NCBI GenBank assembly: GCA_035968315.1
Contig: JAVYIN010000005.1
Location: 248,001 to 312,000, forward strand
DNA length: 64,000 bases
Origin: Nitrospira sp.
GTDB lineage: Bacteria; Nitrospirota; Nitrospiria; Nitrospirales; Nitrospiraceae
Direction of reading: 5' to 3'
How positions within the stretch are numbered: position 1 is the first letter of the stretch; each line of letters opens with the position of its first letter. The position numbers were made by a program, and so were the translations under genes. The notes beneath the pieces were generated by a model that had not been told where the DNA came from, did not search any database, and worked only from the letters and a program-made list of their open reading frames with translations. Below, piece after piece: positions 19,983-38,962 of this stretch.

Positions 19983-21449
19983 CTATGGATACAGGCGTGA
20001 ATCGTCCCTGTTGGAATGGCCCAGTGCGCCTCCAGGAGGCCGGCCGGGAATCTGCTTGAGTCTGAGAAGTTTGGTGAGGTAGGTCCGTTGGAGTCCCAAG
20101 AGCTCAGCGGATCTGGTCTGGTTCCATCCAGTGCGGCGCAGAGCCTCCTCGATAATGGTTCGGCTGTATGTTTCCATCAACTCGTGATAGCCCTGCTCAA
20201 GAGCAAGGGGCTGGTGGTTGCCAGACGACGGGCCGGTCTGTTCCGAAGAGAGGGTGAGATGGACCGGTTCAATGACGGATCCCTCGCATAACACCAGCGC
20301 TCTGGTCAGCACATTTTCCAATTCCCGGATATTGCCGGGCCAGTGGTAATGGTGAAGCCTTTGTAATGCGGCAGGGCTCAAGGTGCAGTGCTGGCGTGCG
20401 CCGAACTGGACGGCCCGGCTGAGGAAATGATCCGCGAGGATGGGCAGATCCTCTATCCGCTCGCGGAGCGGCGGCAGCCGGAGGGTGATGATGTCGAGGC
20501 GATAAAATAAATCTTCCCGGAAGGCTCCTTGCCGAATGGCCTGGCGAAGGTCTTTATTGGTGGCGGCGATGAATCGGACATCTGTGTGCACGGCTTGCGA
20601 GCCGCCGATGCGATAGAACACTTGATCTTGCAGGACCCGCAAGAGATGGCTTTGCATCGGGAGGGGCATGTCGCCGATTTCATCCAGAAAGAGGGTGCCG
20701 CCTTCGGCGATTTCGATTTTCCCCGGCTCGCGCTTGAGCGCGCCTGTAAACGCGCCCCGCTCATGGCCGAATAATTCGTTCTCCAGCAGGCTTTCGGGGA
20801 GCGCCGCGCAATTGACGGCGATGAACGGCTTGTCCCGGCGCGGACTCCACTGATGGATGGCGCGGGCCATGACTTCCTTGCCGGTTCCCGTTTCTCCCAG
20901 CAGGAGCACGGTGGTGTTGGACCCCGCCGCTTGTTGCGCCAGCTTGAGCGGGGCCGCCATCGTAGCGGCGCGGCCCGTGACCGAGGTGTATCGTTCGGCG
21001 ACTTCTTTTCGGAGCACATCGACCTGGCGATGAAGCGACACGGATGCGAGCGCCTTATTAATGACGACGGTGAGATGCTCGCCGGTGAAGGGCTTGGGAA
21101 TGAAATCGCAGGCTCCCAATTGCATGGCTTGCACGGCGCGCTCGACGGTGCCGAACGCGGTGAGGATGATGACCTGGGGGGCCGTGTGGTCCGATGAGAG
21201 GCCGGTGGAATCGCCCGGCCTGGCTCTTGTCTGGGATTTGTCGCGAATCTGTTTCAGGATGTCGAGTCCTGAGAGGAACGGCAGTTCCAGGTCCAGAAGC
21301 ACCAGGTCAGGGTGTTCCTGCTCGATGAGCCGCAGGCCCTCCTTGCCATCCTGAGCCGTGAGAACCTCGTGGCCCATCCAGGCCATGCGATTCTCCAGCC
21401 CAAGGAGAATGTCGCGGTCATCGTCAACAATCAGAATTTTCGCACGCAT
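19983..21449 (-). CDS. NtrC-family sigma-54-dependent response regulator
   Basis: A 488-aa transcription activator. Receiver at residues 1-125 with phospho-Asp in LVLLDLELP. AAA+ domain at about 165-400 with Walker A GETGTGKE, the sigma-54 contact loop GAFTGA, and Walker B GGTLFLDEIGD. C-terminal Fis-type helix-turn-helix at about 435-475 (TGWNQTRSAELLGLQRTYLT). The GAFTGA loop is intact, so it should drive sigma-54 promoters. It is last gene of the sensory operon after the histidine kinase, and is followed by a small gene that has its own sigma-54 promoter. Confidence 0.95.
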   Translation of the reverse strand: MRAKILIVDDDRDILLGLENRMAWMGHEVLTAQDGKEGLRLIEQEHPDLVLLDLELPFLSGLDILKQIRDKSQTRARPGDSTGLSSDHTAPQVIILTAFGTVERAVQAMQLGACDFIPKPFTGEHLTVVINKALASVSLHRQVDVLRKEVAERYTSVTGRAATMAAPLKLAQQAAGSNTTVLLLGETGTGKEVMARAIHQWSPRRDKPFIAVNCAALPESLLENELFGHERGAFTGALKREPGKIEIAEGGTLFLDEIGDMPLPMQSHLLRVLQDQVFYRIGGSQAVHTDVRFIAATNKDLRQAIRQGAFREDLFYRLDIITLRLPPLRERIEDLPILADHFLSRAVQFGARQHCTLSPAALQRLHHYHWPGNIRELENVLTRALVLCEGSVIEPVHLTLSSEQTGPSSGNHQPLALEQGYHELMETYSRTIIEEALRRTGWNQTRSAELLGLQRTYLTKLLRLKQIPGRPPGGALGHSNRDDSRLYP

Positions 21450-21572: not shown

Positions 21573-23903
21573 TCAAAATGTTCGTGTTATCGGGGCGCAG
21601 GGGGGGCCGGATATGCCGGCAATGGGCACGGTAAAGAAGATCCGGGTTCCCGATCCAGGCGCGCTTTCGACAGCAATCTCTCCTTTGTGCATGGCCACGA
21701 GGGTTTTGGTGATGAATAAGCCAAGCTGGGCTCCTTGAGAGGCCGGCATTGATGAGGGCACTTTAGAGAATTCATCGAAAATATGGGGCAGATGTTGCGG
21801 AGAAATCCCGCAGCCCGTATCGGCCACGCAGGTTTTGACCATGTCGTCGGCTGTGCGGGAAAAGGAGATGGTCACGGTTCCGCCAGGCGGAGTGAATTTG
21901 ATGGCATTTCCGATGAGGTTCCAGAGGATCTGTTCCAGTTTATCCCGATCACCGTAGACCTGTGGCAGTGTCGCATGGGCGTCGATGACCAGTGTCACCT
22001 GTTTTTCCGCCGCGACGGCTTGCAGGCTGTCTATGGCCGTGACCGCGATCTCCGCGATGCAGACGGAGTCCGGGTGCAGTACGTCTTTCTGTCTGTCCAA
22101 ACGGGACCAGTCCAGTAATTGATTGATGATGCGGGCGAGCCGGGCCACGTTGTGTTCGATGCGGGCGAGGTAGGTGGTCTGCTGGGGGGTCAATGGGCCG
22201 GTGACCCCGTCGAGCATGTTTTCCGCAAAGTTGCGGATCGCGGTCATGGGCGTGCGCAATTCATGAGACACCACCGATAAGAAGGTCGAGCGCCGCCGGT
22301 CGTGGGCCTGCAGTTGGTCGTTTGCCCGAGACAGTTCGTCGGTGCGTTCGCGAATGCGCTCTTCGAGGTGCTGGGTGAGCTCGGACAAGTGCATGTAGGC
22401 CCGCGTGTTATCGATGGCGGCGGCGACATGGCTGGCAATCGTCAGGAGAATCCGGAGATCGTCTTCGGTGCAGGCCTGCTGGCCGCGGTCTCCGGCCAGA
22501 TATCCCACAATGCCGTTCCGGCTTTGCAGCGGCACGGCAATAAAGGACGAGATGCCGGTGTCTTGGAGTAATGCCAGCACCGGCGGGTGGATCCGGCCGG
22601 TTTCGGATTCCAGGTGTTCCACGAGCACCGGTGTTCCATGCAGCAAGAGCGCGGCGGTGATGGAGCCGTCGTCGCGAATGGGAATCTCCAGGCGATAGGC
22701 GGATTCGGCGACGTCGGGCGAGACGCCGGTGACTCTGGCAATATAGGACGTCTCCCGGTCTTCGTGGCGAAGGCTCAGCACCATGCGCACAAAACCGAGA
22801 TTACCGACCAGCAATTGCAGCACGGTATCGAGGAGCACGTTCATGTTCAGTGTGCTGGCAATGGCCGCGCTGGCTTGATGCAGCGTGGTGAGCTGGCTGA
22901 CGTGCCGTGTAATGGTATGGAGGTTGGCGGTGATGGCCTGATTGCGTTCTTGCACCGAGCGGGCCATGTCGTTGAACAGGCAGGTCAATTGGCCTACTTC
23001 GTCATGCGTCGTTGCGGGCAAGTGCTCCGGGACGGCACCGGTGGACACTTGGCGGGCCATGTCGGCGAGCCGCCGCAGTGGCGTGGTAATTTTGGCCGTC
23101 AACATGTGGGCGCCGGCAATGCCGGCGACAATGATGAGGGCGGTCAAGGCAAAGACGTTTCCCATCATGGTGATGACTGACTGGCGGACATGTTTGTCGG
23201 TGAGGCCGATTTGAACGATGCCATAGATGGCCGGGGCGGCCGTCTCGCTCCGCGGAGCCGTCAGATTGTCGGGGTCGAGCGCAAAGGGAGGAAGGGGCAT
23301 CGCCGAGGGGCGGCGTATCGGCAGGGCGAAGTCATAGAGATTCTCCGAGAGGGCAGGGAACACGTCAAACCAGAGCGAGTGGCGCTCGGAAGATTGGGGC
23401 GCGAGCGTGCCTGGCGCCGTGAGCGGTGTGACCTGCGGAGTTGCGGCGTGTGCCTGTACGGCCCGGGCGGCGATATCGGCATCCGGGTAGAGGGGGAGCG
23501 TTGCGGATGGGTGCGAGCCTGTGGCGGAGGGATAGGTGTCCTTGCTCTGTTTGGCGAGAATGCGGCCCTGAGCGTTCGTGATAACGACATAGACGACTTC
23601 GTCGATGGAGGCGAGTCCATCGATGTATTGTTGCAAGGTAATGGGATCTTCCGCGATTAAGGCCGCAAAACGAAAATGATCGTTATGCGCGACGTTGGCC
23701 AGAAGGATGGTGCCGAGACGATGGAGATCCTCCATCATGGCGGCGCGTTTGGTTTCGACAAAATACCAGCTCAAGGTGGAGCAGGTGAGGACGAGGATGA
23801 GGCTGAAGAACAGCACGAACTTCGTGCGCAAGCTGATGAACGGGCTTGCGGGGGAGCCGGGCGGCGGGGATGCGTGGCGGAGAGGGGCGGGGTCAGGGTG
23901 CAT
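21573..23903 (-). CDS. Membrane sensor histidine kinase with HAMP and GAF domains
   Basis: A 776-aa kinase. TM helix at residues 26-48, a periplasmic sensor region of about 200 residues, second TM around 235-255, HAMP (about 265-320), GAF (about 345-490), coiled coil, HisKA with phospho-His in FLSVVSHELRTPMTAI, and HATPase_c with NLIGNAIKF, DTGCGIS and GLFITKTLV. It lies between the PF04392 binding protein and the NtrC-type regulator in one direction, so it is the likely cognate kinase: periplasmic ligand protein to kinase to sigma-54 activator. Confidence 0.93.
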   Translation of the reverse strand: MHPDPAPLRHASPPPGSPASPFISLRTKFVLFFSLILVLTCSTLSWYFVETKRAAMMEDLHRLGTILLANVAHNDHFRFAALIAEDPITLQQYIDGLASIDEVVYVVITNAQGRILAKQSKDTYPSATGSHPSATLPLYPDADIAARAVQAHAATPQVTPLTAPGTLAPQSSERHSLWFDVFPALSENLYDFALPIRRPSAMPLPPFALDPDNLTAPRSETAAPAIYGIVQIGLTDKHVRQSVITMMGNVFALTALIIVAGIAGAHMLTAKITTPLRRLADMARQVSTGAVPEHLPATTHDEVGQLTCLFNDMARSVQERNQAITANLHTITRHVSQLTTLHQASAAIASTLNMNVLLDTVLQLLVGNLGFVRMVLSLRHEDRETSYIARVTGVSPDVAESAYRLEIPIRDDGSITAALLLHGTPVLVEHLESETGRIHPPVLALLQDTGISSFIAVPLQSRNGIVGYLAGDRGQQACTEDDLRILLTIASHVAAAIDNTRAYMHLSELTQHLEERIRERTDELSRANDQLQAHDRRRSTFLSVVSHELRTPMTAIRNFAENMLDGVTGPLTPQQTTYLARIEHNVARLARIINQLLDWSRLDRQKDVLHPDSVCIAEIAVTAIDSLQAVAAEKQVTLVIDAHATLPQVYGDRDKLEQILWNLIGNAIKFTPPGGTVTISFSRTADDMVKTCVADTGCGISPQHLPHIFDEFSKVPSSMPASQGAQLGLFITKTLVAMHKGEIAVESAPGSGTRIFFTVPIAGISGPPCAPITRTF

Positions 23904-23914
23904 GGCGTCGCCTC

Positions 23915-24886
23915 CTAATAAGTGGCATCGATCAGGCGTTCGAGGTCGCCGGGAAAGGCGATGCCCAGGAAGTTGGCGGTCTTGTGATTCACTGTGATCG
24001 TCATGCGTTCGATCGGGACCGGCTTCGTCGAAAGTATTCGTTCTCCGTCGAGCAGACGTTTGGCCAGCTGCCCGGTTTCGCGGCCGACATCGCCGTAGGC
24101 AATCGAAATACTGAGCAGCGCCCCAAGCTTCGTCAATTCCGGCGAAAACCCGATCACCGGAATATGCCGCGCGAGGGCGGACTCAAGAATAAACCGAATC
24201 GACTCAGCGGTCAGGACGGTGGAGTCTGGCGTCAGCCAAAGGCCCTCGACTTCGGCGAGCAGCGCGCGCAGTTGCTGAGGGATGTCTTTCTCGCTGCCGA
24301 CGGGAAAGGATTCCAGTCGAAACCCGCTGGCGGCGGCCTGTAGGACGGCATCATTGATTCGAGCGGCGGATTTGTTGGACTCAAAGAGGACGCCGAGCCG
24401 CCGCAACGATGGCAGCAGGGTGTGGATGATTTTGAATTGTCGGTGGAGCGGAATTTCTAATTGCGTGCCGGTCATATTGGGCGCCGTGAGGCGGTGCTTG
24501 AGCGGGTCGAGGATCATCATATAGACGATGGGGATATCCGCAATTTCGTGCTTGGCGGCCAGCGCGGCTTTGATGCCGACGGCGAGGACCATCTGCGCGT
24601 CCGAAGCTCTGATTTTCTTGGCCAAGAGGAGGCCCAGCTCGGCATCATTGCGCAGATCGTATTCCACATAGGTTGCGGAGGCCGGAGCTGTGGCTTTGAA
24701 GCCTTCGATGGCCTGGGCGTAGGCCGGCAGGTCCGAGGACTTGAGGATTGCGATCTCGGCGGCCTGTGCCGGCGGAATGGCGAAGATGGAGGCGAGGAGT
24801 GCCAAGATGAGGGCGAGCAGATGCTGTCCGGCCGCGCCATGCCGGAGGTGAGAGAGGTGTGCTGTGCGGCATCCGTATATTGGCAT
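23915..24886 (-). CDS. Periplasmic ABC-type substrate-binding protein (PF04392)
   Basis: A 323-aa exported protein with signal peptide (ALILALLASIFAIPPAQA). The two-lobe binding fold resembles the TrpX/PF04392 family (IPIVYMMILDPLKH, then IPVIGFSPELTKLGALLSISIAYGDVGRETG). No ABC ATPase or permease lies nearby. The gene is 8 nt after the receiver-PAS gene and 11 nt before the kinase gene. The likely role is ligand sensing for the kinase rather than transport; that is inference from context. Confidence 0.85.
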   Translation of the reverse strand: MPIYGCRTAHLSHLRHGAAGQHLLALILALLASIFAIPPAQAAEIAILKSSDLPAYAQAIEGFKATAPASATYVEYDLRNDAELGLLLAKKIRASDAQMVLAVGIKAALAAKHEIADIPIVYMMILDPLKHRLTAPNMTGTQLEIPLHRQFKIIHTLLPSLRRLGVLFESNKSAARINDAVLQAAASGFRLESFPVGSEKDIPQQLRALLAEVEGLWLTPDSTVLTAESIRFILESALARHIPVIGFSPELTKLGALLSISIAYGDVGRETGQLAKRLLDGERILSTKPVPIERMTITVNHKTANFLGIAFPGDLERLIDATY

Positions 24887-24894
24887 GATGACGG

Positions 24895-26445
24895 TCAGCG
24901 GCCGGGCGGTGTGTGCGCTTGGACGGTGCCCACGATGCGAGAGGCTCGTCCCGTCTCGTCATGAATAATATGGCCGGACCATGCCAGCCACCGAAGGGTG
25001 CCGTCAGGGCGGCGGACTCGATGCTCGAAGGCGATTTCGCCCTGTGAGGTGCTGTCCGCCAGGCGGAGCGCGGCCAGGATCGAGGGCCGGTCGTCGGGAT
25101 GGATCCGCGCGAGAAAGTCTTGCCGGCTTATGAGGCCCGATCCGGCTGGGTCTCCGAGCAGGTCATGGGCGATCGGCGACCAGTAACAACGGTCTGTCCG
25201 GAGGTTCCAGTCCCAAATGCCGATGCGCGCGCTTCCGAGCGCGTGCTGAATCCGCTCCTCATTGGTTCTGAGATGGTCGCCGATTCGTTTGCGTTCGGTA
25301 ATGTCGGTGGAGATGCCGCAGACGGCGTAAGGCCCGCCGGTGTCGTCGCACAGCGGAAATTTGATGGAGATGTAGTGATGGAGTCCGTCCGGATGCGGGG
25401 CGGTCTCGTCGTATTCCGCCGGCCCATTGCGGTCCAAGACCTGGCGATCATTGGCGCTGAAGACCTCGGCGATCTTGGGGGGAAAGAGGTCGTGGTCGGT
25501 GCGTCCGGCAATCTGCCCGGCCGTCAGATGGAACAATTCCTGGAACCGCCGATTGGTCAGGATGTACCGGCCGTCCGCGCCTTTCACGTAAATGACCGCG
25601 GTGCTATTGTCGATAATATCTTTCAGCAACCGCTCGCTGCGGCGCAGCGTTTCTTCGATCTGCTTCCGCTGTGAAATGTCTCGAATGATGCCGCTGTAAA
25701 AATTGCCGCCGCCGGTTTTCCATGTGGCCAGCGAGAGTTCGATCGGAAATTCGGTGCCATCCTTCTTGATCCCTTGCAGCTCGACCGCCGATCCGATCAG
25801 ACGGCTCACCCCGGTTGTCTCGACGCGCGCCAGCCCGGCCAGATGCCGGTCTCGAAAGCGGACGGGCATCAGGATGGTAAGGGGCTGCCCAAGCAGCCCG
25901 TCGTGCGGGTAGCCGAACATCGTGGCCGCCGAGCGGTTGTGCGAGACGATGGTGCCGCGCCCGTCCGCAACGACGATGGCATCGCTGGCCGATTCCACCA
26001 GCGAGCGGAAGCGGTGTTCGCTTTCCGTCAAGAGATGCTCGGCCTGCTGCGCTTTCACCGCGAGTTCCTTGACCCCGATGGCGCGCCGGAGCGTTTGCCG
26101 AAGCTCCTCGCGGTGGTAGGGTTTGGTCAGATAGGCGTACGCGCCCCGTGACAGTGAGCCCACGGTTTTCTCCGTGGCCGTGCTGGCGGTCACGATGATG
26201 ACCGGCAAGTGCGGGTCCAGCTGCTGGATGGTGCCGAGGAGCGTCAGTCCATCGCCATCGGGCAGTGTGACGTCGAGCAAGACCGCATTAAACCGGTGGG
26301 CATGGAGGTGGGCGAGCGCTTGGGCGCAGGAGGTGGCGGTGTGGACCGCATACCCGTCATGAATGAGCAGGTCCTGCAGGCTGACGACAATGTCCGGATT
26401 GTCTTCAACGACGAGGACGGCATAGGAGGCGGTATCGACGGCCAT
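24895..26445 (-). CDS. Receiver-PAS-PAS-PAS protein without a kinase domain
   Basis: A 516-aa protein. Receiver domain at residues 8-125 with phospho-Asp in AVLLDVTLPDGDG and Lys in YLTKPYHRE, then three PAS domains at about 145-265, 275-395 and 400-510, each starting with an S/R-rich helix (e.g. FRSLVESASDAIVVADGRG). The protein stops after the third PAS with no HisKA, GGDEF or other output. It may act as a phospho-relay adaptor or signal integrator for the downstream kinase. It is first gene of the sensory operon. Confidence 0.9.
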   Translation of the reverse strand: MAVDTASYAVLVVEDNPDIVVSLQDLLIHDGYAVHTATSCAQALAHLHAHRFNAVLLDVTLPDGDGLTLLGTIQQLDPHLPVIIVTASTATEKTVGSLSRGAYAYLTKPYHREELRQTLRRAIGVKELAVKAQQAEHLLTESEHRFRSLVESASDAIVVADGRGTIVSHNRSAATMFGYPHDGLLGQPLTILMPVRFRDRHLAGLARVETTGVSRLIGSAVELQGIKKDGTEFPIELSLATWKTGGGNFYSGIIRDISQRKQIEETLRRSERLLKDIIDNSTAVIYVKGADGRYILTNRRFQELFHLTAGQIAGRTDHDLFPPKIAEVFSANDRQVLDRNGPAEYDETAPHPDGLHHYISIKFPLCDDTGGPYAVCGISTDITERKRIGDHLRTNEERIQHALGSARIGIWDWNLRTDRCYWSPIAHDLLGDPAGSGLISRQDFLARIHPDDRPSILAALRLADSTSQGEIAFEHRVRRPDGTLRWLAWSGHIIHDETGRASRIVGTVQAHTPPGR

Positions 26446-26522: not shown

Positions 26523-26536
26523 ACTGTCTAGACAGT
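26523..26536. promoter_or_regulatory. Perfect 14-bp palindrome, possible operator
   Basis: ACTGTCTAGACAGT overlaps the stop codon of the ribbon-helix-helix gene and lies 78 bp upstream of the receiver-PAS gene. Ribbon-helix-helix proteins usually bind such palindromes, so it could be the operator through which that protein controls the sensory operon. Only the symmetry is observed. Confidence 0.35.
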
Positions 26537-26914
26537 CCGTTCGCAAGGCGGATGCGGTTGAGGTATCGGCCTGCGACGGGGCCTTCCCGGTTTCAAGGGC
26601 GCAAGACGAGGAGGGAAGACTCCGCCGTTTGCCTGTTCCATTTCGGCCACGGCATCGTGCAGCGCATCGGTAATGACACGCGCCAGCGTGGCTCGTTCAG
26701 TCCAATAAATGGCATTTCGGAGGCGCTCGATCAGAATGGTGGGCACATTCACGGTGACACGTGAGGTGCCATGAGCCGTCAGAGAGGCGGGGGCACTTTT
26801 CACGGACAAGCGCCGCGCCGCCGTTGTCGGCTGACTATGACTATTGGGCCATAGGTCCTGGGGGGGAGGGGCGGTGTTGAGGGGGGTCGGATGCTTCGAG
26901 GTCTGTTGTGCCAT
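26528..26914 (-). CDS. Ribbon-helix-helix DNA-binding protein
   Basis: A 128-aa protein. The start at MAQQTSKHP has AAGGA 8 nt upstream. The first 55 residues are disordered and rich in Pro, Thr and Ser. A ribbon-helix-helix core follows: SRVTVNVPTILIERLRNAIY, then a second helix TERATLARVITDALHDAVAE. The tail is basic (KPGRPRRRP). Likely a CopG/Arc-type repressor. Its start lies inside the end of the small membrane protein gene (74-nt overlap), so they are one transcript. Confidence 0.7.
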   Translation of the reverse strand: MAQQTSKHPTPLNTAPPPQDLWPNSHSQPTTAARRLSVKSAPASLTAHGTSRVTVNVPTILIERLRNAIYWTERATLARVITDALHDAVAEMEQANGGVFPPRLAPLKPGRPRRRPIPQPHPPCERTV

Positions 26915-27032
26915 GTGCCGGTTCCTTTTGGATGATACGCCGATCGTCAAGGGTAATGGACAAGACCAGGAACCACACAACGCCCAGGATGCTGACCAAG
27001 GGGACCCAGATAATAAGGAATTCCAGTGTCAT
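26841..27032 (-). CDS. Small single-span membrane protein under a sigma-54 promoter
   Basis: A 63-residue protein starting MTLEFLIIWVPLVSILGVVW, one TM helix at residues 4-25, then a short charged tail (DDRRIIQKEP) rich in Pro. AGGAGAAG precedes the ATG. It overlaps the ribbon-helix-helix gene by 74 nt. It resembles the tiny membrane proteins at 19457 and 38650 in size and plan, and shares with them an upstream sigma-54 motif and box. Function unknown. Confidence 0.65.
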   Translation of the reverse strand: MTLEFLIIWVPLVSILGVVWFLVLSITLDDRRIIQKEPAHGTTDLEASDPPQHRPSPPGPMAQ

Positions 27033-27083: not shown

Positions 27084-27101
27084 ACGCAAACCACATGCCG
27101 T
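27084..27101 (-). promoter_or_regulatory. Sigma-54 promoter motif
   Basis: The minus strand reads ACGGCATGTGGTTTGCGT. GG and GC are 10 nt apart with TTTGC at -12; the base before GG is C rather than T. It lies about 54 bp upstream of the small membrane protein gene. Confidence 0.55.
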
Positions 27102-27206: not shown

Positions 27207-27222
27207 GAATCAAAATGGATTC
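27207..27222. promoter_or_regulatory. Candidate activator box, inverted repeat
   Basis: GAATC-AAAATG-GATTC, a perfect 5-bp inverted repeat with a 6-nt spacer. The same sequence, with one or two changes in the left arm, occurs at 38963. It lies 108 bp above the -24 element at 27099, a normal place for an enhancer-binding-protein site. Confidence 0.55.
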
Positions 27223-27284: not shown

Positions 27285-28109
27285 CTAACGAGGATGCGAG
27301 GAGAGGGCTCGTAAATCCCATTCCGCGACGCCGTGGAGACCGACTTGTTTGAGCAGCGCCGCCCGCATGCGGCGGAGGGATTTATCTGTTGGGTGGTGTT
27401 CGATGAGCGAACAGAGGCAGGACATGGCATCGTACCAAAACCCGTTATGTGCATTCTCACTGACGCTGTGTGTCGTGCAGGTGAGATCCGGCCCTGCCTC
27501 CACCAGGCAGGCGTTGAACTCACAGCGCTCAATGACGCCGCCGGCGACGATATCTTGAGATGGAGAGTCGGGATTGCGGACAACGGACACATACCAGCGG
27601 TATTGCACGTCCGGTTCAAGGGAGAGCCCCAGCTCTTTCAGATTGATCGCCTGGATGCCGGCGGCTTTCGGAGAAGGCAGGGGAGCTTCGTAGACGGGTT
27701 GAATCTGGCGATTGTCAACCAGGGTGAACCGTACAGTATAGGCGGTCGGCTTGGAGAGGAACCAATTCAAGACGGGTGTCCGGCTGATGGTTAGTCCGAC
27801 ATGATCCGGGACAAGGGCCTGAATCTCCGGATCGCTCCCTTCCGTTCCGCGAAGGGAGCCTCCAACGCGTGCACGGGGAACCAGTTTGGGGGGCGGCGTA
27901 TAGATTGGTATGGAGGCATCGGAGCCGCTCTCGGAGGGGATTTCAGCGGGGAGATCGGCCGTCTGTCCGAACGAGGGAGAGAACGATAGGATGAGACCGG
28001 CACACAGCGCTCGCATCAAATATGGCAATGTGCGCCGCACAAGAGGCCTTGTTGCTCCACCGTCTGAATGACTCTCCATCGCGAATACCGTAGCATAAAA
28101 TGGTTTCAT
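27285..28109 (-). CDS. DUF928 secreted protein
   Basis: About 274 aa. A signal peptide (LCAGLILSFSPSFGQ) follows a variable N-terminus; ATG 28109, TTG 28121 and ATG 28079 are possible starts. The mature part fits DUF928: GRVGGSLRGTEG-like segment, LVPDHVGLTISRTPVLNWFL, a beta-sandwich with YRWYVSVV, and a helical C-terminus (WDLRALSSHPR). DUF928 proteins often accompany CHAT and TPS genes in cyanobacteria. It is last gene of the TPS operon, its start overlapping or abutting the CHAT stop. Role unknown. Confidence 0.8.
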   Translation of the reverse strand: MKPFYATVFAMESHSDGGATRPLVRRTLPYLMRALCAGLILSFSPSFGQTADLPAEIPSESGSDASIPIYTPPPKLVPRARVGGSLRGTEGSDPEIQALVPDHVGLTISRTPVLNWFLSKPTAYTVRFTLVDNRQIQPVYEAPLPSPKAAGIQAINLKELGLSLEPDVQYRWYVSVVRNPDSPSQDIVAGGVIERCEFNACLVEAGPDLTCTTHSVSENAHNGFWYDAMSCLCSLIEHHPTDKSLRRMRAALLKQVGLHGVAEWDLRALSSHPR

Positions 28110-28111
28110 AT

Positions 28112-30472
28112 TTATAGCCAATTGTTCAGCAAGAGGAATGCCGCCCAGTACGCCGGGTGGGCATACACGCGGTCCTTCAGCAGATGGCGCTGGGCTCGCT
28201 GCAGGGCCTCGGCCTTTGAGGCCGAAGGATTGTTGAGCTGCCGGTAGAATTCCGCAATGAGGGCGGTGGAGGCTTCGTCATTGATGAACCAGAGGGACGC
28301 CAGCGCGCTACGGGCTCCGGCTTTGATCGCCACGCCGGCGAGGCCCAAGGCGGCACGGTCGTCGCCGATGCCGGTTTGGCAGGCGCTCAGGGTTAGCAGT
28401 TCGAGCGGGTCTTGCCGGAAGCGCAGGAGCCCAACCAGGCGGTCCAACTGTGTCATGGTCAGTTTGCCGTCGTAAGTGAGCAGAAACGAGTCCGCAGGTT
28501 CAGGGGAAAAGTGTCCGTGGGTGGCAATGTGCAGCACCCCGTAGCGGCCTTCGCGTAATTCCGTTTCGAGGCGGGTAGCCAGAAAGTCATGATTTTCGAG
28601 GCGCTGCCCCTTGTAGAGTGATTCAATCGAAGCGAGTTCTTCCGCGACGTAAGGCAGGGCCGGAAAACCCTGCACGGAGACCGTCAACCCGGCCGCCAGG
28701 ATGCGTGTGCGTGTTCGGTCCAGCGGGTGGGGGTCGGTTAACGTCAATCCGGGGGTCGAGGCGACGGCGTACCGGTCGATGAGAAAGGCGGTTCCGTCGT
28801 GCAGCGCCGCCATCGGCACGGTTCTCAGCGCACGATCGGGCACGAAGACGAGCGTCGTAATGTGCAGGCGGTTCAAGTCGGCCTGGATTGGCCGTACGAG
28901 CCAGTCGTAGAGGTGCTGGGCATGAGGCAGATACTCATGCGTCGTCCGTTTTTCCAGCAGGCGGCGGAACGCTCTGATTTCCTGCGTGACCCGTTTGTCG
29001 TCGATGGGCACGAGGTAGCGCGTGAGTCCGGTTGGAAGACTGACCAGCAGTTCAATCCTGGTTGGGAAAAGGATCGGGTAGACGACCGCAGTGGACGGGG
29101 CGAGCCGGTCGAAGGGCATTGTGCGCGCCTGGAGCGCATCCACGCAGTCGTCACGAAAGTAGTCGCGAAGCTCGGCGGCCTTAGAGGCTTCGATGGCGTC
29201 CCGCGCGGCCAGGATGTCCTGCTCGATGCCGGGCGCGCCGGGGCCGCGCGAGGCGCGTTGGAGAAGCAGGTCCGCCAGTTCGAAAAAGAGCGGGCGGATC
29301 GAGTCCTGCTCGTCCGGCGGGTCGCCGGCGTGCGCCTGTGTGAGTTGTGGCCGGATGGGCTGCAGGGTGGCGACGGCGTGCCGGTAGGCATCGATCGCCT
29401 CGTCCAATTGGCCTGCCAGTCCCAATTCGCGTCCCAACTGCCATTCCCACCGATACAGCGATTCCGGCGCGTCCACCGACTGGGCGGCAAACCAGGCTTG
29501 TCTGGTGAGATGGATTGCGTCGTCCAGCCGGTGCTCTGTTTCGTACAGATGGCCCAGATAGCCGAGCGCATAGGAGAGCGTGCGGGTATCGCCGAGGGAC
29601 TTCGCAACCGTGGCCGATTCCTGAAGCGCCCCGGCGGCGCGCAGCAAGAGGGGCGATTGGATGTCTGGCAGCAGCGTCCGGAGCCGTGCGTACAAGCGTC
29701 CCACACGCACAAGCGCCTGGGCTTTGTCGTGGGATGGCGGCAGCAGGGTGAGTTGCTCAAGCGCCTGATCCGTCCATCGCCGGCTGTCGTCAGGACGGCC
29801 GAGCCGCAGGGCGGCGCGTGCGGCATTGATCCGTGCGTGGAGGGCCACCATTGGCGCCTGTCCGGCCTGGGCGAGGCGGATGGCGTCGGCAAAAGCGGCC
29901 AGCGCATCGGCCTCGTGTTGCTGAAGCACGGCAAGGATGCCTTGATCGTTCAGAATCGAGGCCATCAGCGAGGGAGAGGGCTGCTGGCCGGCCATGGTGT
30001 GGGCTTGGGCGAGCAGATCCGCCGCCATGTCCAGGTGGCGGGTCTCCAGATAGGCGCGTCCCAGGTGGGCCAGCACGGTGGCCTGCCAGACCCTGTCGGT
30101 CTGTTGTTGTGCCAGGGCGAGCGCGAGTTCCAGAGATTGGAGCGCCTGCTTCGTATGTCCGAGTGTCTGCGCGGCTTGCGCGGCGCCGAGGAGTGCCTGG
30201 CTTTGCAGGCGCACGGCGCCCTGCTCCCCGAATAACCGGGCGGCGTCTTTCCAGGCGGCGAGGGCCTGTTCGAAATCACCACGGTGAAAGGCCTCCGAGC
30301 CCTGGGTCATGAGCTGGTCAGGATGGTCTGCTGCGATTGCCAGGTTCAGGCCGGTGATCAGGAAGAGTCCACAGAGCAGCAGACGCAACAAGATCCGGCG
30401 GCCTCGTGCCACGCCCGTACGATGGGGGTTGAGGGGGAAGCCGCGCGGGAGAGACCGATCTCGATGGGGCAT
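28112..30472 (-). CDS. TPR-CHAT cysteine peptidase, exported
   Basis: A 786-aa protein. The N-terminus has a hydrophobic signal segment (RLLLCGLFLITGLNLAIAAD), then about ten TPR-like helical repeats (residues 60-420), then a C-terminal CHAT domain (about 480-786). The catalytic dyad appears intact: His652 in HIATHGHF and Cys698 in LTLSACQTGIGD. CHAT domains are caspase/separase-like peptidases. A signal peptide points to action in the periplasm or outside. It lies 12 nt after tpsB and overlaps or abuts DUF928. Substrate unknown; the co-encoded exoprotein is a candidate by context. Confidence 0.9.
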   Translation of the reverse strand: MPHRDRSLPRGFPLNPHRTGVARGRRILLRLLLCGLFLITGLNLAIAADHPDQLMTQGSEAFHRGDFEQALAAWKDAARLFGEQGAVRLQSQALLGAAQAAQTLGHTKQALQSLELALALAQQQTDRVWQATVLAHLGRAYLETRHLDMAADLLAQAHTMAGQQPSPSLMASILNDQGILAVLQQHEADALAAFADAIRLAQAGQAPMVALHARINAARAALRLGRPDDSRRWTDQALEQLTLLPPSHDKAQALVRVGRLYARLRTLLPDIQSPLLLRAAGALQESATVAKSLGDTRTLSYALGYLGHLYETEHRLDDAIHLTRQAWFAAQSVDAPESLYRWEWQLGRELGLAGQLDEAIDAYRHAVATLQPIRPQLTQAHAGDPPDEQDSIRPLFFELADLLLQRASRGPGAPGIEQDILAARDAIEASKAAELRDYFRDDCVDALQARTMPFDRLAPSTAVVYPILFPTRIELLVSLPTGLTRYLVPIDDKRVTQEIRAFRRLLEKRTTHEYLPHAQHLYDWLVRPIQADLNRLHITTLVFVPDRALRTVPMAALHDGTAFLIDRYAVASTPGLTLTDPHPLDRTRTRILAAGLTVSVQGFPALPYVAEELASIESLYKGQRLENHDFLATRLETELREGRYGVLHIATHGHFSPEPADSFLLTYDGKLTMTQLDRLVGLLRFRQDPLELLTLSACQTGIGDDRAALGLAGVAIKAGARSALASLWFINDEASTALIAEFYRQLNNPSASKAEALQRAQRHLLKDRVYAHPAYWAAFLLLNNWL

Positions 30473-30484
30473 GGGCGTTGTCCT

Positions 30485-32263
30485 TTATAAGACCTGTACA
30501 ACCATTTGCAGGTGGATGCCATGGTCTTGCAGATTGCCAGGCGGATGGGACACATGGTTGAGCGGATGCCCCCAATAGAGTTCGAATCGCGCGCGCTCTT
30601 GCGGCAGGAGAGTCCAGCGTAGGCCGAGCCCGACGCTGGCCAAGGTGTTGGGCTCGGCCGTGCTGCCCTTGGCATCCCATGCACGGCCCATATCGGCGAA
30701 TTGGGCGAATTGCAGCCGGGGCTCTCCGGATGGAAAGGCCAGCAGCGGGATGCGCGATTCGAGGGAGGCGAGGAACGCATTGTCGCGGATGAGGGTATTC
30801 TCCCGATACCCCCGTACGCTGAACCGTCCTCCGACCGGCACCTGTTCCAGCGGGAAGAGGCGGTCGTTCGAGAGTTGGAGGCTCATCTGTCCCAGTAGTT
30901 GCACGCCCCCCCAGTCATCGAGCCGCCGCAGGCCCTGGACCTGTCCTAACCAGGAGAAGAATTGCGAGTCGGGCAGGGGACCGGCATTATTTGTCGCGCC
31001 CAGCGCATCAAGGCCGATCGAAAAACGGGAACGCGCGGCCACCACGGCACTCGGCGTCCGATGCACATATTCTTGGATGAAGCGGAGCGCGCTGACCGTA
31101 TTGACCCCGGTATCCGACGAGCCGGGAATCAGATCGTTGGTGCCGACGCTCCAGGTGACTTTGTTGTACAAGCGTTCACCGGTCACGGCGACGGCGAACT
31201 CGTCGGTCAGGGTTTTATAGAGCGGCTGGCGGATGGTGACACCGATGATCTCCGCGTCAGACCGCACATCGAGGGACCGAAAGTTGTCGGCGACGACGAG
31301 AAAGTCGTTGCGCCGGTAGTACCCCGTCACGGTGGTGTCGTAGCGGGAGACCGGCAGCGTATAGGAGGTATCGATGATGGGATTGACGCCGCGAGACCGG
31401 CCGTAGGTGAAGGAAAAGAGATCGCCATGGCCGGTGAGGTTCTGATGCGCGACGGTGGCCAGTCCTCGTTCGGCGCCGACGACGGGCGTTTGATGGTTGT
31501 TCAGATCCAGCCAGGCTTTCCAGGGGCTCGCTTCCGTGACGCGCAGGTTCAAGATGCTTTCGCCGCGCCGGTCTCCGGGGCGGAGTTCGGCGTTGATGCG
31601 CTCGATCCGGCTATCTTGCTGCAAGAGTTGCAGCCGCTCTTGCAATGGGGCGATGGCAAACGGGGTGCCCGCGCCGAGTGCGACCCGATCACGCAGGTAG
31701 TCGGGGCGGAACCACTCGGTGCCCTCCACATCGATCCGTGCCAGCGCGCCTTCGACGATCTGGATCGTGATGGTGTTGAAGGTCACATCCTGATCGGGGA
31801 TGATCGCGCCTGAGGTGATATAGCCGTGGTTGACATAGAGGAGTGTCAACGCGAGGCGCAGCCGCTCCAGATCGTCTGTCGTGAGGGTGCGGCCCTTATA
31901 GGGGCTGGTGACTGCGTCGATCTCTGCGTCCGTGAAGACGGTGCTGCCGGTCACATGGATGTCATGGACAAAGACGCGGATCTGTCCCAACGGCTGCTTG
32001 AGATCGCCGTCGGGAGGGCGGGGAACCGGTGGCAGGACCGGACCGGGCGGCGGGCCGGGCGGCGGAAACTCTTTTTTCAGCGGTCCGGACGGTTCGCCGG
32101 AACGGCCGGTCGGGTCGAAGACCGGCGGTATGACTTGCGCGAAGAGCGGCGGCTGCGTCAGTGCGAGCAGCATAACGACCCCCAAGAAGCGTGCGAGGCG
32201 TGTTCCCGGCTGTGCCGGCACGCGCCGCATACGATCGGCCGCGTCGGAGCTTAAGCGCGGCAT
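30485..32263 (-). CDS. Two-partner secretion outer-membrane transporter (TpsB; ShlB/FhaC family)
   Basis: A 592-aa outer-membrane protein. Signal peptide (LGVVMLLALTQPPLFAQ), Pro-rich linker, two POTRA domains (about 90-165 and 170-245), then a 16-strand barrel (about 245-592) with the RGYRENTL-type motif of FhaC (GRFSVRGYRENTL). It exports the TpsA partner across the outer membrane. Its start overlaps the TpsA stop by 13 nt, and CHAT follows 12 nt downstream. Confidence 0.93.
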   Translation of the reverse strand: MPRLSSDAADRMRRVPAQPGTRLARFLGVVMLLALTQPPLFAQVIPPVFDPTGRSGEPSGPLKKEFPPPGPPPGPVLPPVPRPPDGDLKQPLGQIRVFVHDIHVTGSTVFTDAEIDAVTSPYKGRTLTTDDLERLRLALTLLYVNHGYITSGAIIPDQDVTFNTITIQIVEGALARIDVEGTEWFRPDYLRDRVALGAGTPFAIAPLQERLQLLQQDSRIERINAELRPGDRRGESILNLRVTEASPWKAWLDLNNHQTPVVGAERGLATVAHQNLTGHGDLFSFTYGRSRGVNPIIDTSYTLPVSRYDTTVTGYYRRNDFLVVADNFRSLDVRSDAEIIGVTIRQPLYKTLTDEFAVAVTGERLYNKVTWSVGTNDLIPGSSDTGVNTVSALRFIQEYVHRTPSAVVAARSRFSIGLDALGATNNAGPLPDSQFFSWLGQVQGLRRLDDWGGVQLLGQMSLQLSNDRLFPLEQVPVGGRFSVRGYRENTLIRDNAFLASLESRIPLLAFPSGEPRLQFAQFADMGRAWDAKGSTAEPNTLASVGLGLRWTLLPQERARFELYWGHPLNHVSHPPGNLQDHGIHLQMVVQVL

Positions 32264-35166
32264 CCGGTCAACCCATTCTCCGCGAAGCTCTGGGTCAGAA
32301 AGCCGGCCGGATTCATGCGGCGCAACGAGACCGATTCGTCGGCCGGCGTCGTGACGGTCTCACGTGATGGCACGGTCCGGGCGAATGGGCCGCTGTTCTC
32401 TCCGCCGGTTGCGAAGGGGCTCGGTGACCACCCGGCTGGTTCCGCCGGTAAATGGTCGCGTCCGGCGATGAGCAAGCTGCTGGCTTGGCTGTCCGCGAGG
32501 GCGGCGCACCGTCCCGTCCGCAGCGTCTGCGTTTGCCGCAACGAGGCGGGCAGGGACGAGACGGTGCCGCTCAGGCTCGACGTCGGCGACTGAATGTTCA
32601 CCGGGCCATCCAGGCCGAACTGTGATGAGGCATCGACCAGGCTTAGGGCGTCTTGCAGGTAGAGCTGGGAGTAGTTGATGGTGATGGCGCCCCCGTTGCC
32701 TTGCACCGCCTGGGCGAGAATCTGGCTGTTCCGCAGAATGACCACGTTCGGATCGATGAAAATATTGCCGCCGCCGCCGGCACCGCCGAGCACCGAAGTG
32801 CTGATGGTGCTGTCCGTCAGCCGGATGAGATCCGTCGCGCGGATGTCGATATTGCCGCCGCCAGCCTGCGCGGCCTCAGCTCGCACCGTGCTGTCTGTCA
32901 TGCGAAACGCTTGTCCCGCAGCGATGGCAATATTGCCGGCATTGCCGGGCCCGGCGCTGCTGGCTGAAATCGATGCGCCACCGCTCATGGTCACGGATTG
33001 TCCGGCGGTTACGGTAATATCGCCGCCTGCACCAGGCCCTTGAGTATCAGAGAGGACTTTGGTGCCCCGGTCCATCAACAAGACTTGCTTGCCGGCTGTG
33101 ATGGCGACTGACCCGGCTGTACCGGTCGATGTGCTCAGGCTTTCGGTGGTGATTATGGATCCACTCAAAAGAGAAATTGAGTCGGATGCGCTGAGTTGAA
33201 TCTGGCCGCCTTGGCCGGAAGATACGGTGCGGCTTGTGATTAAGCTTTGGCCGGACAGCGTGATCGATTCTCCTGTGAGGTTGATCGCCCCTCCGGTTCC
33301 GCTCTCAGTCGTGGAACTTCGAAGAACGGCGTGATCGTCAAGAGTGATACTCTTGAGTGCGGATAACTGGATGGGACCTGTATCAGCGCCGACTGATCTC
33401 GTTCGGCTGTTTATCTCAGCGCTTTGTCCGATAAGAATCGAGTCTATGGCGGTAATGTTCACGGTGCCACTGGCGGCCGTGTCAGATATCGTAAATAGTT
33501 GAGCGGCATCGGTAAGGCGAAAATTCTTTGCAGTGATTGAAATGTCGCCGCTTGACCCAAGCCCGGCCTGAGAAGTGCTGATGCGGCTTTGCGTGGGTTG
33601 GGTGAATTGTGAGGCCCCGGCAAGGGACACTGTGCCGGTCGAAGTTACAGCGATACTTCCAGCTGCACCCTGGCTTGTGCCGATCGTCTCAATAAATCCT
33701 CCTCCGGTAATCGTGAGGTTCTCGGCCGAAAGGGCGATATTCCCTGACTTTCCATCGGCTATGGTTAGGGTTTGGATTCCGCCTTGTTCTCCAAGGGAAA
33801 TCGAGGCGGCGTTGATTGTAATCTGCCCGCCATCGCCGGCACGGGCTACAACGTTTCCTCCCGTCGTGCTGCTCTGGATACTGCTGAAGCCTCCTAGGCC
33901 GTCGCCTCCAGTGACGGAGACAATCCCGGATGCTGTTATGTTGATGCTTCCCGCTTGGGCATCGCCGTCCGTTGAGGTTCCTAGGAGGGATCCTCCCGAC
34001 ACTTGCACATTCTGGGCGTTGATGGAGATATCACCGGAACGGCCTTGTCCAGTCCCTGCGGAAAAGATTGTGCTTGGCATCCCGATTGTATTATTGAGCG
34101 ACAGATCGCCGGTCAGGTTGATATCGATGGCGGTCGGCGCGCCGTCCACGTTCCCTTGGGTTGCTGAAAAAAGAAGGGCGCTGTCCATCACCAACTGTCC
34201 GCCTCGAATACGGATGGTGCCTCCTGCGCCTCCGGCTTCGAAGGCGTTATCGCTCGTGTCGAGGAAGGCGCCTTCCGAGAGCGTGATGGTTCCCATGGTC
34301 GAAAATGACTGGCTGTTGATGTTCGGGCCGGTCTGCAAATTGGGGAGGAGAATTTCGCCAGGCGAGGCCACGCTGGCCAGTCGGATTTCACCGGCTGGCG
34401 CTGCGAGCATGCTCGGTGTACCGGTGGCGGGATCGGATGTGATCGTAATATCTCCGCCAGCCAAGGTCATCGATTGGCTGACAGGAACGGAGAGCGCGCT
34501 GCCTAGAACGGTAATGGGAGCAGGGGCGGCATCCAGGAATCCAAAGGCGGCGGGCTCCAAGAATCCAAAACTCGCGATGGGCGACACGGAAAGCACGCTG
34601 TTTGAGAGGCTGTCGCTCGCCGGATTCGCGTAGAAGTTTGTGCTGTTCGTTCCGTCGAACAGGCGAATGTAGTTGGCGGTGGTGAAGGCGACCGATCCGC
34701 CGACATTCAAGCTGGCGGTTGGGCCGAAGACGATGCCGGCAGGGTTCATCAGAAACAAATTGACGGCGGCCCCGTTCGGGTTCACGAACTGGGTGGTTTG
34801 AATCGTCCCATAGATATTCGAGACATTTCCGCCTGTGACGCGGCCAAGGATGTTGGATGTTTGTAGCCCGCTGCTGTTGAGGAAGTTGGCGACATCCCCC
34901 GGTCCAATGATGAAGTCTCCAAAGCTATGTAACAGGTTCGGACCGCTGCCCGGTCTCGTGCCGCCGGTGATGTTGTAGAGATTTCCATTCGGTGTGATCG
35001 TGGTGTTGAGATTTCCTGCGCCATTCGTCGAGGTAATCGAGGTTGTGACTTGGGCTCGAAGGCTGTTTGTCGTGAACGAGAGAAAGGCCAAAATGGCAAG
35101 GATGAGGCCTATGCTTGAGTTTGGAGATAAGCGAGGAAGCTGATTCCGGCTAGTTGTGTCGTTCAT
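32251..35166 (-). CDS. TPS exoprotein (TpsA, filamentous-haemagglutinin-like)
   Basis: A 971-aa secreted protein. Signal peptide, then the TPS haemagglutination domain (residues about 40-290) with NPNGAAVNLFLMNPAGIVFG (the NPNG and NPAGI motifs). A long beta-helix follows, with repeats of the type GxIxITA and SGDISI up to about residue 870, and a C-terminus ending in one Cys-containing segment (RTGRCAALAD). It should be exported by the adjacent TpsB. The cyanobacterial-type architecture fits surface-exposed or released adhesin. RBS GGGGAG precedes the ATG. Its C-terminus may be processed by the neighbouring peptidases; not shown. Confidence 0.9.
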   Translation of the reverse strand: MNDTTSRNQLPRLSPNSSIGLILAILAFLSFTTNSLRAQVTTSITSTNGAGNLNTTITPNGNLYNITGGTRPGSGPNLLHSFGDFIIGPGDVANFLNSSGLQTSNILGRVTGGNVSNIYGTIQTTQFVNPNGAAVNLFLMNPAGIVFGPTASLNVGGSVAFTTANYIRLFDGTNSTNFYANPASDSLSNSVLSVSPIASFGFLEPAAFGFLDAAPAPITVLGSALSVPVSQSMTLAGGDITITSDPATGTPSMLAAPAGEIRLASVASPGEILLPNLQTGPNINSQSFSTMGTITLSEGAFLDTSDNAFEAGGAGGTIRIRGGQLVMDSALLFSATQGNVDGAPTAIDINLTGDLSLNNTIGMPSTIFSAGTGQGRSGDISINAQNVQVSGGSLLGTSTDGDAQAGSINITASGIVSVTGGDGLGGFSSIQSSTTGGNVVARAGDGGQITINAASISLGEQGGIQTLTIADGKSGNIALSAENLTITGGGFIETIGTSQGAAGSIAVTSTGTVSLAGASQFTQPTQSRISTSQAGLGSSGDISITAKNFRLTDAAQLFTISDTAASGTVNITAIDSILIGQSAEINSRTRSVGADTGPIQLSALKSITLDDHAVLRSSTTESGTGGAINLTGESITLSGQSLITSRTVSSGQGGQIQLSASDSISLLSGSIITTESLSTSTGTAGSVAITAGKQVLLMDRGTKVLSDTQGPGAGGDITVTAGQSVTMSGGASISASSAGPGNAGNIAIAAGQAFRMTDSTVRAEAAQAGGGNIDIRATDLIRLTDSTISTSVLGGAGGGGNIFIDPNVVILRNSQILAQAVQGNGGAITINYSQLYLQDALSLVDASSQFGLDGPVNIQSPTSSLSGTVSSLPASLRQTQTLRTGRCAALADSQASSLLIAGRDHLPAEPAGWSPSPFATGGENSGPFARTVPSRETVTTPADESVSLRRMNPAGFLTQSFAENGLTGCRA

Positions 35167-35228: not shown

Positions 35229-35996
35229 TTACGGCTTCAAAAATCTTTCGGCATACCCGTCGAACACTCCGGTCTGGCCGAAGTTCGGAACGTTTGCAAT
35301 TGCGGCAGACTTCACTTCGACAAGCGATAAGGTGAGTTTGTCACCCGCGTATTTCTGATAGAACCAGAATTCTCCCTTCATTACACGGCTTCCGGCAAGA
35401 CCGGAACTCCAGGTTTCACTCGTCGCCAGATTGAAATTGCCATACGATGCCGGGATGGAGCAACACACGGACTTTTGCTGATATGTCGCGATCTCGTTGT
35501 CTCCTGTATTGTTGTCATTGACCCAGCCGGTGACCTTGAACCAGTCATCTTTAGCTGCATTGCTTCCCCGCGTCATCGAACCGTTGGCCGTTCGATCAAA
35601 TTGGACTTGAACTGGAGGGTTGGCGCTCGGATTGGCTGTCGGTGGTGCATCGAACTGTGCGAAAAATACGATGTCTCCGTTCACTGGCTCCGTGCTGGCC
35701 GTGATGAGCACATTTTCAACCCAGATCGAGTCATTGTTGCCGTCGGTCACTTTTGCCATTGCCGGATTGGCGGCACCCGGTTTTTTTTCAATGGTAATCC
35801 CACTATAGCTTTTAGCGGTTCCGTCGCAATTGCTGAGAACGACGTCGTTCGGGAAATCGGTGCAATTTCCGGCCGTGAGCTGTGTGCCCTGGATCACGAC
35901 GGTTAAACCGGTGGCGGCCTGTGATGGCACGGGCAAGATGACCGCAGTGGCCAGCAAGCACAGTGTGGCGAGCAGCAGCGTTGGTGTCTTCGTCAT
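35229..35996 (-). CDS. Secreted protein of unknown function in the TPS cluster
   Basis: A 255-aa protein with a clear signal peptide (LLATLCLLATAVILPVPSQA). The mature part is rich in Asn, Thr, Gly and Ser with beta-strand character, and carries a few Cys that could form disulfides (NCTDF, SNCDG, SVCCSI). RBS AGGAGGAG lies close to the ATG. No known domain is recognised. It lies 62 nt upstream of tpsA and about 100 nt downstream of the S8 gene, all same strand, so it may be cotranscribed with the export system. Confidence 0.75.
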   Translation of the reverse strand: MTKTPTLLLATLCLLATAVILPVPSQAATGLTVVIQGTQLTAGNCTDFPNDVVLSNCDGTAKSYSGITIEKKPGAANPAMAKVTDGNNDSIWVENVLITASTEPVNGDIVFFAQFDAPPTANPSANPPVQVQFDRTANGSMTRGSNAAKDDWFKVTGWVNDNNTGDNEIATYQQKSVCCSIPASYGNFNLATSETWSSGLAGSRVMKGEFWFYQKYAGDKLTLSLVEVKSAAIANVPNFGQTGVFDGYAERFLKP

Positions 35997-38649: not shown

Positions 38650-38736
38650 TCAGTCTTGCCAAATCAGCCTCAGGACCAGATAGATAAAGAGGGCCATGAG
38701 GGTATTGGAGAAGAAGATCAATAGTGTGAAATCCAT
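38650..38736 (-). CDS. 28-residue membrane peptide under a sigma-54 promoter
   Basis: A very short gene encoding MDFTLLIFFSNTLMALFIYL followed by VLRLIWQD, almost a bare TM helix with a basic/aromatic end. A strong RBS (AAGGAG, 7 nt from ATG) supports it. It aligns with the first 27 residues of the 93-residue protein at 19457 (MDFILLLIVANSLVAACVYF...RIW). It has its own sigma-54 promoter and upstream box. Function unknown. Confidence 0.7.
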   Translation of the reverse strand: MDFTLLIFFSNTLMALFIYLVLRLIWQD

Positions 38737-38806: not shown

Positions 38807-38825
38807 TTTGCAAACGAGAGGCCAA
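38807..38825 (-). promoter_or_regulatory. Sigma-54 promoter motif
   Basis: The minus strand reads TTGGCCTCTCGTTTGCAAA. GG and GC are 10 nt apart, with TTGGC at -24 and TTTGCA at -12, close to the consensus. The 28-residue membrane peptide gene begins about 74 bp downstream. Confidence 0.75.
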
Positions 38826-38962
38826 TGCGAAGGCAGGTTAGTCTGCGATGGTGTGGTCTTCTCAGGCGTGAATTGGCGGGCTTATTGGAGGGGTTTCGTT
38901 TTCTTGCGAAATATGGAATTGATGAAACGAGATTCTTGTAAGAACCTAAAAGAATTCAGCCC

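Follow-up and report, generated by a model that had tools for sequence, protein, structure and literature searches.

According to the passages of PMC6321045 that deal with them, LuxPQ, TorTS and XylFII-LytS are sensor kinases gated by a periplasmic binding protein (PBP). Regulators that combine a receiver (REC) with PAS domains and have no output domain have been described in archaea, and the part of PMC5847659 that covers them proposes dimerization or contact with unknown targets. We considered PMC5108060 and, going by its relevant portion, set it aside as unrelated. Among open-licence PMC articles, we found no paper describing an arrangement of PBP, kinase, NtrC and REC-PAS. NtrC/sigma-54 units have palindromic enhancers, often in tandem, upstream of a -24/-12 site. 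Nitrospira are central nitrifiers that are hard to manipulate, and to our knowledge, little is known about the control of their surface and secreted products.

The window is a stretch of 64,000 nucleotides (contig positions 248001-312000) from a 3.1 Mb, 99.97%-complete Nitrospira genome. On its - strand, the genes for a REC-PAS protein with three PAS regions, a PF04392 PBP, a HAMP-GAF kinase and an NtrC-type regulator follow each other in that order and form one operon (Table 1). An earlier note on this DNA gave spacings of 8 and 11 nt around the PBP gene, and the ORF coordinates agree (8 nt from the REC-PAS stop at 24895 to the PBP start at 24886, and 11 nt from the PBP stop at 23915 to the kinase start at 23903). 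Pfam also bears out its descriptions of the neighbors: the receiver protein has PF00072 and three PAS regions but no kinase, GGDEF or HTH domain, and the kinase is HAMP-GAF-HisKA-HATPase. The GAFTGA loop of the NtrC regulator can be read off its translation. We think it rather likely that the operon encodes a LuxPQ-like, PBP-gated two-component system that controls both the operon itself and a two-partner secretion (TPS) cluster, with the function being a prediction. This reading builds on gene content, synteny, the absence of PF02653, the conservation of enhancer and promoter, and phyletic co-occurrence.

Table 1. Features of the sensory operon and the linked TPS cluster (positions in the window)
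Feature	Position	Strand	Basis
NtrC-type sigma-54 response regulator, REC-AAA+(sigma-54)-HTH_8	19983..21449	-	Pfam
Sensor histidine kinase: TM, periplasmic Cache/PDC-like domain, TM, HAMP, GAF, HisKA, HATPase	21573..23903	-	Pfam and model
PF04392 periplasmic binding protein, 323 aa	23915..24886	-	Pfam; structure matches 3lft, 6hni, 3lkv
REC-PAS-PAS-PAS protein without output domain, 516 aa	24895..26445	-	ORF and Pfam
ORF150, small conserved protein without Pfam match	26528..26980	-	ORF and comparison of loci
Unannotated 63-aa ORF, predicted single-TM, first ORF behind predicted sensory promoter	26841..27032	-	
Predicted sigma-54 -24/-12 site of sensory operon, CGGCATGTGGTTTGCG	27085..27100	-	
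Predicted enhancer, exact palindromic consensus, GAATCCATTTTGATTC	27207..27222	-	
DUF928 protein, linked cluster	27285..28121	-	
TPR-CHAT (caspase-like) protein, apparent signal peptide, linked cluster	28112..30472	-	
TpsB (POTRA_2-ShlB) outer-membrane secretion pore	30485..32263	-	
TpsA-like exoprotein, PF05860 TPS domain	32251..35166	-	
255-aa exported-looking protein, no Pfam family	35229..35996	-	
Subtilase (PF00082)	36094..37740	-	
28-aa ORF, predicted single-TM, behind second predicted promoter	38650..38736	-	
Predicted sigma-54 site upstream of TPS cluster, TGGCCTCTCGTTTGCA	38809..38824	-	
Predicted tandem enhancer, GAATCCATTTTGATCC / GAATTCTTTTAGGTTC, 21 bp apart, with 1 and 2 mismatches	38942..38978	-	

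For synteny, we compared 61 distinct loci from the family and 20 from the phylum's other families. These were hand-picked from match lists, with best matches and complete genomes preferred, and are not a random sample. (L033, L089 and L092 were removed as duplicates of L040, L036 and L037, and counts over 61 exclude them.) We call a locus orthologous if its PBP shares at least 55% identity with ours; 39 loci are of this kind, and the remaining 22 are more distant. The PBP is 57-67% identical to those of six Nitrospira MAGs, which are the named relatives found. Relatives of it are present in 131 of 175 genomes of the family, and a profile search (E 1e-20) found relatives in 163 of 295 genomes of the phylum.

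The kinase gene lies directly after the PBP gene in all 61 family loci (a contig end cuts the kinase in L035, L045 and L069) and after it in 18 of the 20 loci from other families (the exceptions are L115 and L120), which is the gene coupling of a PBP-gated two-component system. Together with the absence of PF02653 here, this gives good support to the PBP as the sensory partner of the kinase. The earlier reading as a multi-input sensory pathway is partly borne out: the PBP-kinase partnership stands on gene order, but the TonB receptor and the predicted TPS-CHAT target had been overlooked. An NtrC gene follows the kinase on the same strand in 36/39 orthologous loci; among the others, L035 and L045 run into the end of their contig, and L058 carries a different regulator. 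None of the 22 more distant loci has a co-oriented NtrC behind the kinase. L073-L077 have NtrC just past the kinase on the opposite strand, and L061, the one g14 locus that we scanned, has a REC-PAS-GAF-HisKA-HATPase hybrid in its place. The N-terminal model of the kinase (pLDDT 62) matches WalK (4ywz; Z 10.7, rmsd 3.2, 136 aligned) and, among many ties, LuxQ (1zhh_B; Z 9.6, rmsd 3.6, 141 aligned). The periplasmic domain appears to be Cache/PDC-like, with several kinds of sensor tied in this low-confidence model. Foldseek alone, integrative models excepted, gave weak matches. The PBP and kinase models are shallow (7 sequences), and we did not use absent fold matches as evidence.

The receiver protein seems to belong with this system. 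All 40 of the REC-PAS homologs that we scanned contain PF00072 and 36 contain PAS families (L068, L069, L071 and L072 are short REC-only homologs). The 12 families matched across the 40 include no kinase, GGDEF, EAL or HTH family, so the missing output domain is a conserved feature rather than a truncation. D15, D58, T86 and K108 are invariant in all 40. The protein thus has the phosphoacceptor set, the PAS domains and the lack of an output domain of a REC-(PAS)n regulator. It is possible, if rather doubtful, that it is an independent response regulator of another kinase and is outside this phosphorelay, as it is present in only 23 of the 39 orthologous loci. However, where it is present it adjoins the PBP or TonB gene (as close as 8 nt to the PBP here), and its acceptor residues do not vary.

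In the relatives, what usually accompanies the PBP gene is a TonB-dependent receptor and not an ABC transporter. Of the ORFs of 600-760 amino acids that matched nothing else in the window and the first 46 loci, 35 group into one similarity cluster. We scanned ten proteins from the receptor position: nine have plug and barrel and the tenth, which is shorter, has the plug only. The TonB homolog matches CirA and BtuB, chiefly in the plug. The receptor is near-complete (matched span above 1.7 kb) in 31 of the 61 loci, is reduced to a remnant in 10 and is missing from 20; the window operon lacks it. Outside the family, 15 of the 20 loci have a receptor-like match no more than 5.3 kb away (four are on the opposite strand and several are only 24-27% identical). 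Our genome has just three plug genes, all elsewhere, so such proximity would be unlikely by chance. The receptor queries match two of these three proteins at 23-28% identity (L078 and L079) and have no match in the third (L080), so we found no moved ortholog of the receptor in this genome. These counts fit an old gene partner that was lost repeatedly while PBP, kinase and NtrC stayed, and they suggest that the gene partner of this PBP family in the phylum is often a TonB receptor and not an ABC pump.

The receptor might instead be essential, with receptor-mediated import as the event that is sensed and the window system as a decaying remnant. A receptor that is near-complete in 31/61 loci and degraded in 10, and whose link is seen outside the family too, would agree with this. 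We consider it unlikely, as the PBP, the kinase, NtrC and the promoter elements persist in loci without the receptor, the window included, and signalling therefore seems to be independent of a linked receptor.

Ahead of the sensory unit, a sigma-54-like site was found at p ≤ 0.05 on the coding strand of 47/61 loci and on the reverse strand of 5/61 (p-values are against dinucleotide shuffles, and the site weights were preset, not fitted). When we looked for gapped palindromes within 260 bp upstream of sites with a score of at least 10.5, exact GAATC-N6-GATTC turned up in 28 of 48 loci, compared with maxima of 1-2 in ten shuffles. It is often in tandem, 21-22 bp apart, with the sigma-54 site about 105-160 bp downstream. 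The window's enhancer (27207-27222) sits 122 bp before the predicted sigma-54 site (27085-27100), and only the left half of a second copy is discernible 22 bp further upstream. The two window sites score modestly (10.7 and 10.5), and a scan of the whole window gave 28 sites, near the 20-26 expected by chance from 5 shuffles, so it is their conserved position that supports them. The genome has one sigma-54 (rpoN) gene. From its sequence, the conserved -24/-12 element with a distal palindrome looks like a sigma-54 promoter with an enhancer, and a GAATC-N6-GATTC enhancer that fronts both the operon and the TPS cluster appears to be newly defined here.

Only 82 nt separate ORF150 from the REC-PAS gene in the window. 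ORF150 may start downstream of the position given in Table 1, and it could be a ribbon-helix-helix protein. At the place of the 63-aa ORF, 27 of the 28 loci with ORF150, the window included, have a small hydrophobic ORF with a site resembling a ribosome-binding site, by a search whose filter was biased towards hydrophobic ORFs. Third-position changes were the commonest in 34 of 36 compared pairs, and dS exceeded dN in all 34 pairs with estimable dS, which argues that the 63-aa ORF is coding. This small membrane-protein ORF (26841-27032), like the predicted sigma-54/enhancer promoter, is an addition to the earlier note.

In the linked cluster, a TPS-domain exoprotein adjoins a POTRA-ShlB pore, as in two-partner secretion. 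Genes of the cluster lie upstream of the sensory operon in most of the 39 orthologous loci (CHAT in 36, DUF928 in 36 and TpsB in 30, with some loci cut by contig ends). There was no enrichment of sigma-54 sites in the gap directly before FHA (1/25, reverse 1), or directly before TpsB (0/31), CHAT (3/36, reverse 0) or DUF928 (1/39, reverse 1). Sites of the form AGGCACAAGCATTGCA before DUF928 in eight loci vanished once the region was trimmed at the end of the CHAT match, and we dropped them because they fall within the CHAT coding sequence. The predicted TPS promoter is up to several kb upstream of the cluster, with other genes intervening. We tested 21 regions (twenty around or upstream of TpsA, and the whole window), and a tandem enhancer with a sigma-54 site is near TpsA in 16/21 in the sense orientation and 0/21 in antisense. 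The tandem is between TpsA and TpsB in L155 and between two TpsA-like matches in L150, L160 and L162, and the region from L156 also spans the sensory promoter. The five regions that fail are L147, L152, L154, L159 (which has an enhancer pair 25 bp apart) and L164 (which has a single enhancer and a site of 15.9). The window's 28-aa ORF resembles ORFs behind the same element in L145, L146, L148, L155, L156, L157 and L164.

We also searched 77 genomes of the genus with a combined enhancer and sigma-54 pattern. There were 97 matches, compared with 1 for the reversed control, and 43 of the 77 genomes have the pattern. We called a PBP ortholog at E ≤ 1e-95 (45 genomes with and 32 without), and the pattern is in 41/45 genomes with the ortholog and in 2/32 without (Fisher p 9e-15, which overstates independence because the sequences are related; part of the co-occurrence is also trivial because the operon carries its own promoter). 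In our own genome, a looser pattern has 1 match, the sensory operon (control 0), and does not catch the TPS-side element of the window. As those enhancers are mismatched, the link to TPS in this species rests on the relatives. (A scan of our genome for enhancers with 2 mismatches gave at least 1531 forward matches and 229 in the control, which was too loose, and we replaced it with the combined pattern.) Exact enhancers alone number 5 in our genome and 8-24 in eight relatives, with 0-1 in controls; some of these are not positioned before a sigma-54 site.

In 13 of the 31 pattern loci that we examined, sensory or TpsA genes follow within 1.5 kb. The genes that follow in the other 18 match neither the sensory nor the TPS proteins, which counts against our reading. 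We ran Pfam on ten genes from those 18 loci and found a ketosynthase (L167), TPR proteins (L170 and L187), an RTX-repeat protein (L176), a PrsW-like protease (L190), a papain-like protease (L174, where the gene falls in that genome's TPS region) and four genes without a family. Besides the sensory genes, the pattern thus leans towards surface and secreted products, which agrees with the general claim in the title of PMC3162934, 'sigma factor 54 is a central controller of the bacterial exterior'.

A different NtrC-type regulator could bind the enhancer, with the operon as one of its targets and the operon's own NtrC acting elsewhere. Several g14 loci do retain near-perfect sigma-54 sites despite having no co-oriented NtrC. 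But in the g14 loci that we examined, the palindrome has drifted to GTATC-N6-GATAC or is missing, and the pattern tracks the PBP ortholog, so we think that this is improbable.

The PBP scores 103.4 bits against PF04392 (ABC_sub_bind; cut-off 25.9, E 1.7e-29) and, by eye, has a signal peptide without a lipobox. Its best NCBIfam match is the TrpX equivalog NF041285, at 107.5 bits, which is far under the 390-bit cut-off, so we do not class it as TrpX. The earlier note held that the protein lacks ABC partners, and this is true genome-wide for the permease family PF02653 (BPD_transp_2): our genome contains a single PF04392 gene and nothing that matches PF02653, and hence no importer of the TrpXYZ kind as judged by that family. 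PF02653 is absent from 26 of the 77 genus genomes, and 15 of those 26 have the PBP ortholog. In the other 51 genomes it is mostly found as permease pairs side by side, and among the places listed in the genus, comparison by eye found none at a PBP locus. The PBP model (pLDDT 68) matches CD0873 (6hnj; Z 19.2, rmsd 7.0, 264 aligned) and Trp-bound 3lft (Z 16.9, rmsd 10.1, 257 aligned). That the PBP is an ordinary uptake protein using an unlinked permease, with an incidental position in the operon, is very improbable: the nearest solved structures (Trp-bound 3lft and CD0873 6hni) are described as ABC-type binding proteins and our permease search covered one family, PF02653, but that family is missing from the genome, the kinase is adjacent in 61/61 and 18/20 loci, and the TrpX match is so weak. 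These results suggest that "orphan ABC binding proteins" of the PF04392 family may act as sensors. MetH is found near a paralogous system (checked with Pfam in L077; ORFs of similar length have the same place in L074 and L075), which hints at cobalamin or methionine as a ligand of the paralog only.

We propose that the PBP-gated system does not itself take part in transport. A small ligand from outside the cell would reach the periplasm via the TonB receptor in many relatives and, as that gene is gone here, by another route in this species. The ligand would bind the PF04392 PBP, and we infer that this protein contacts the kinase at its Cache-like periplasmic domain. The kinase would then phosphorylate the NtrC regulator, and this in turn would bind the GAATC-N6-GATTC enhancers and turn on the sigma-54 promoters of its own operon and, as predicted target genes, the TPS-CHAT-DUF928 cluster. 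Phosphate probably also passes between the kinase and the receiver domain of REC-PAS; the latter protein would be a side branch, perhaps a phosphate sink or a PAS-tuned modulator.

More tentatively, Nitrospirota may have a wider module: a TonB receptor together with a PF04392 PBP would form a two-stage ligand antenna, a sigma-54 kinase-NtrC pair would relay the signal with tuning by REC-PAS, and GAATC-N6-GATTC would drive secreted or surface products. These would be two-partner secretion with CHAT and DUF928, other exported proteins and, in some species, the ketosynthase, and the promoters would often have a tiny membrane protein behind them. Naming a regulator together with its presumed DNA motif and candidate targets opens this proposed regulon to test with purified protein and reporter constructs.

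Overall, we appear to have known parts in a new and conserved arrangement, with a predicted function. As in LuxPQ, TorTS and XylFII-LytS (in the passages of PMC6321045 that describe them), a PBP goes with a membrane kinase that bears an extracytoplasmic sensor domain, and the periplasmic domain of LuxQ is among the tied fold matches of our kinase model. Compared with those accounts, our system has a PF04392 (TrpX-type) PBP, a sigma-54 NtrC output and a REC-PAS side protein, and many operons related to it have a TonB receptor. TrpX (3lft) and CD0873 share the PF04392 family and the fold, but here the PBP is tied to a kinase gene in a genome with no PF02653 permease. The archaeal REC-(PAS)n regulators, as the relevant part of PMC5847659 presents them, likewise consist of a REC domain and then PAS repeats, with no output domain, whereas ours is bacterial, is in a PBP-kinase-NtrC operon and varies in its number of PAS domains, including none. 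Like other NtrC/sigma-54 units, this one has palindromic, often tandem enhancers, here about 105-160 bp from the -24/-12 site; its half-site (GAATC/GATTC) and its predicted targets are specific to the present system.

Most orthologous loci keep the TpsA-TpsB-CHAT-DUF928 cluster in its place upstream of the sensory genes. In the window, both its CHAT protein and its DUF928 protein seem to begin with a signal peptide (read by eye), so the caspase-like CHAT protein may act in the periplasm. The tiny proteins encoded behind predicted promoters in the window are of two types, both of which were found again in related loci. The remnants of the TonB receptor in four related loci may be decaying or repurposed.

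Coordinates of features in the window and of receptor remnants in related loci (L-numbers)
Feature	Position	Strand	Remark
TpsA-TpsB-CHAT(TPR)-DUF928 cluster	27285-35166	-	
Unannotated tiny protein, predicted single-TM	26841-27032	-	directly downstream of predicted sigma-54 promoter
Unannotated tiny protein, predicted single-TM	38650-38736	-	directly downstream of predicted sigma-54 promoter
TonB receptor remnant	L038:9158-9547		short ORF
TonB receptor remnant	L039:9197-9586		short ORF
TonB receptor remnant	L041:9178-9699		short ORF
TonB receptor remnant	L043:9766-10941		short ORF, plug only

Several of the more distant (g14) relatives of the PBP-kinase locus still have strong predicted sigma-54 sites, and we found no adjacent NtrC in these loci. 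In one g14 locus, a REC-PAS-GAF-HisKA-HATPase hybrid (L061:15713-18445) occupies the NtrC position. The paralogous TonB-PBP-kinase system adjoins a B12-dependent methionine synthase (L077:4559-8254) in one related genome; L074 and L075 contain ORFs that match this gene in position and approximate length.

Elsewhere in this genome, another exact enhancer (L124, G000:C5:203901-203916) is followed 177 bp downstream by a sigma-54-like site (score 11.0). In three loci of other genomes, the enhancer plus sigma-54 pattern precedes a ketosynthase gene (Pfam-checked in L167; assigned by a similar N-terminus in L169 and L182), which suggests that in some species this predicted pattern controls a natural product.
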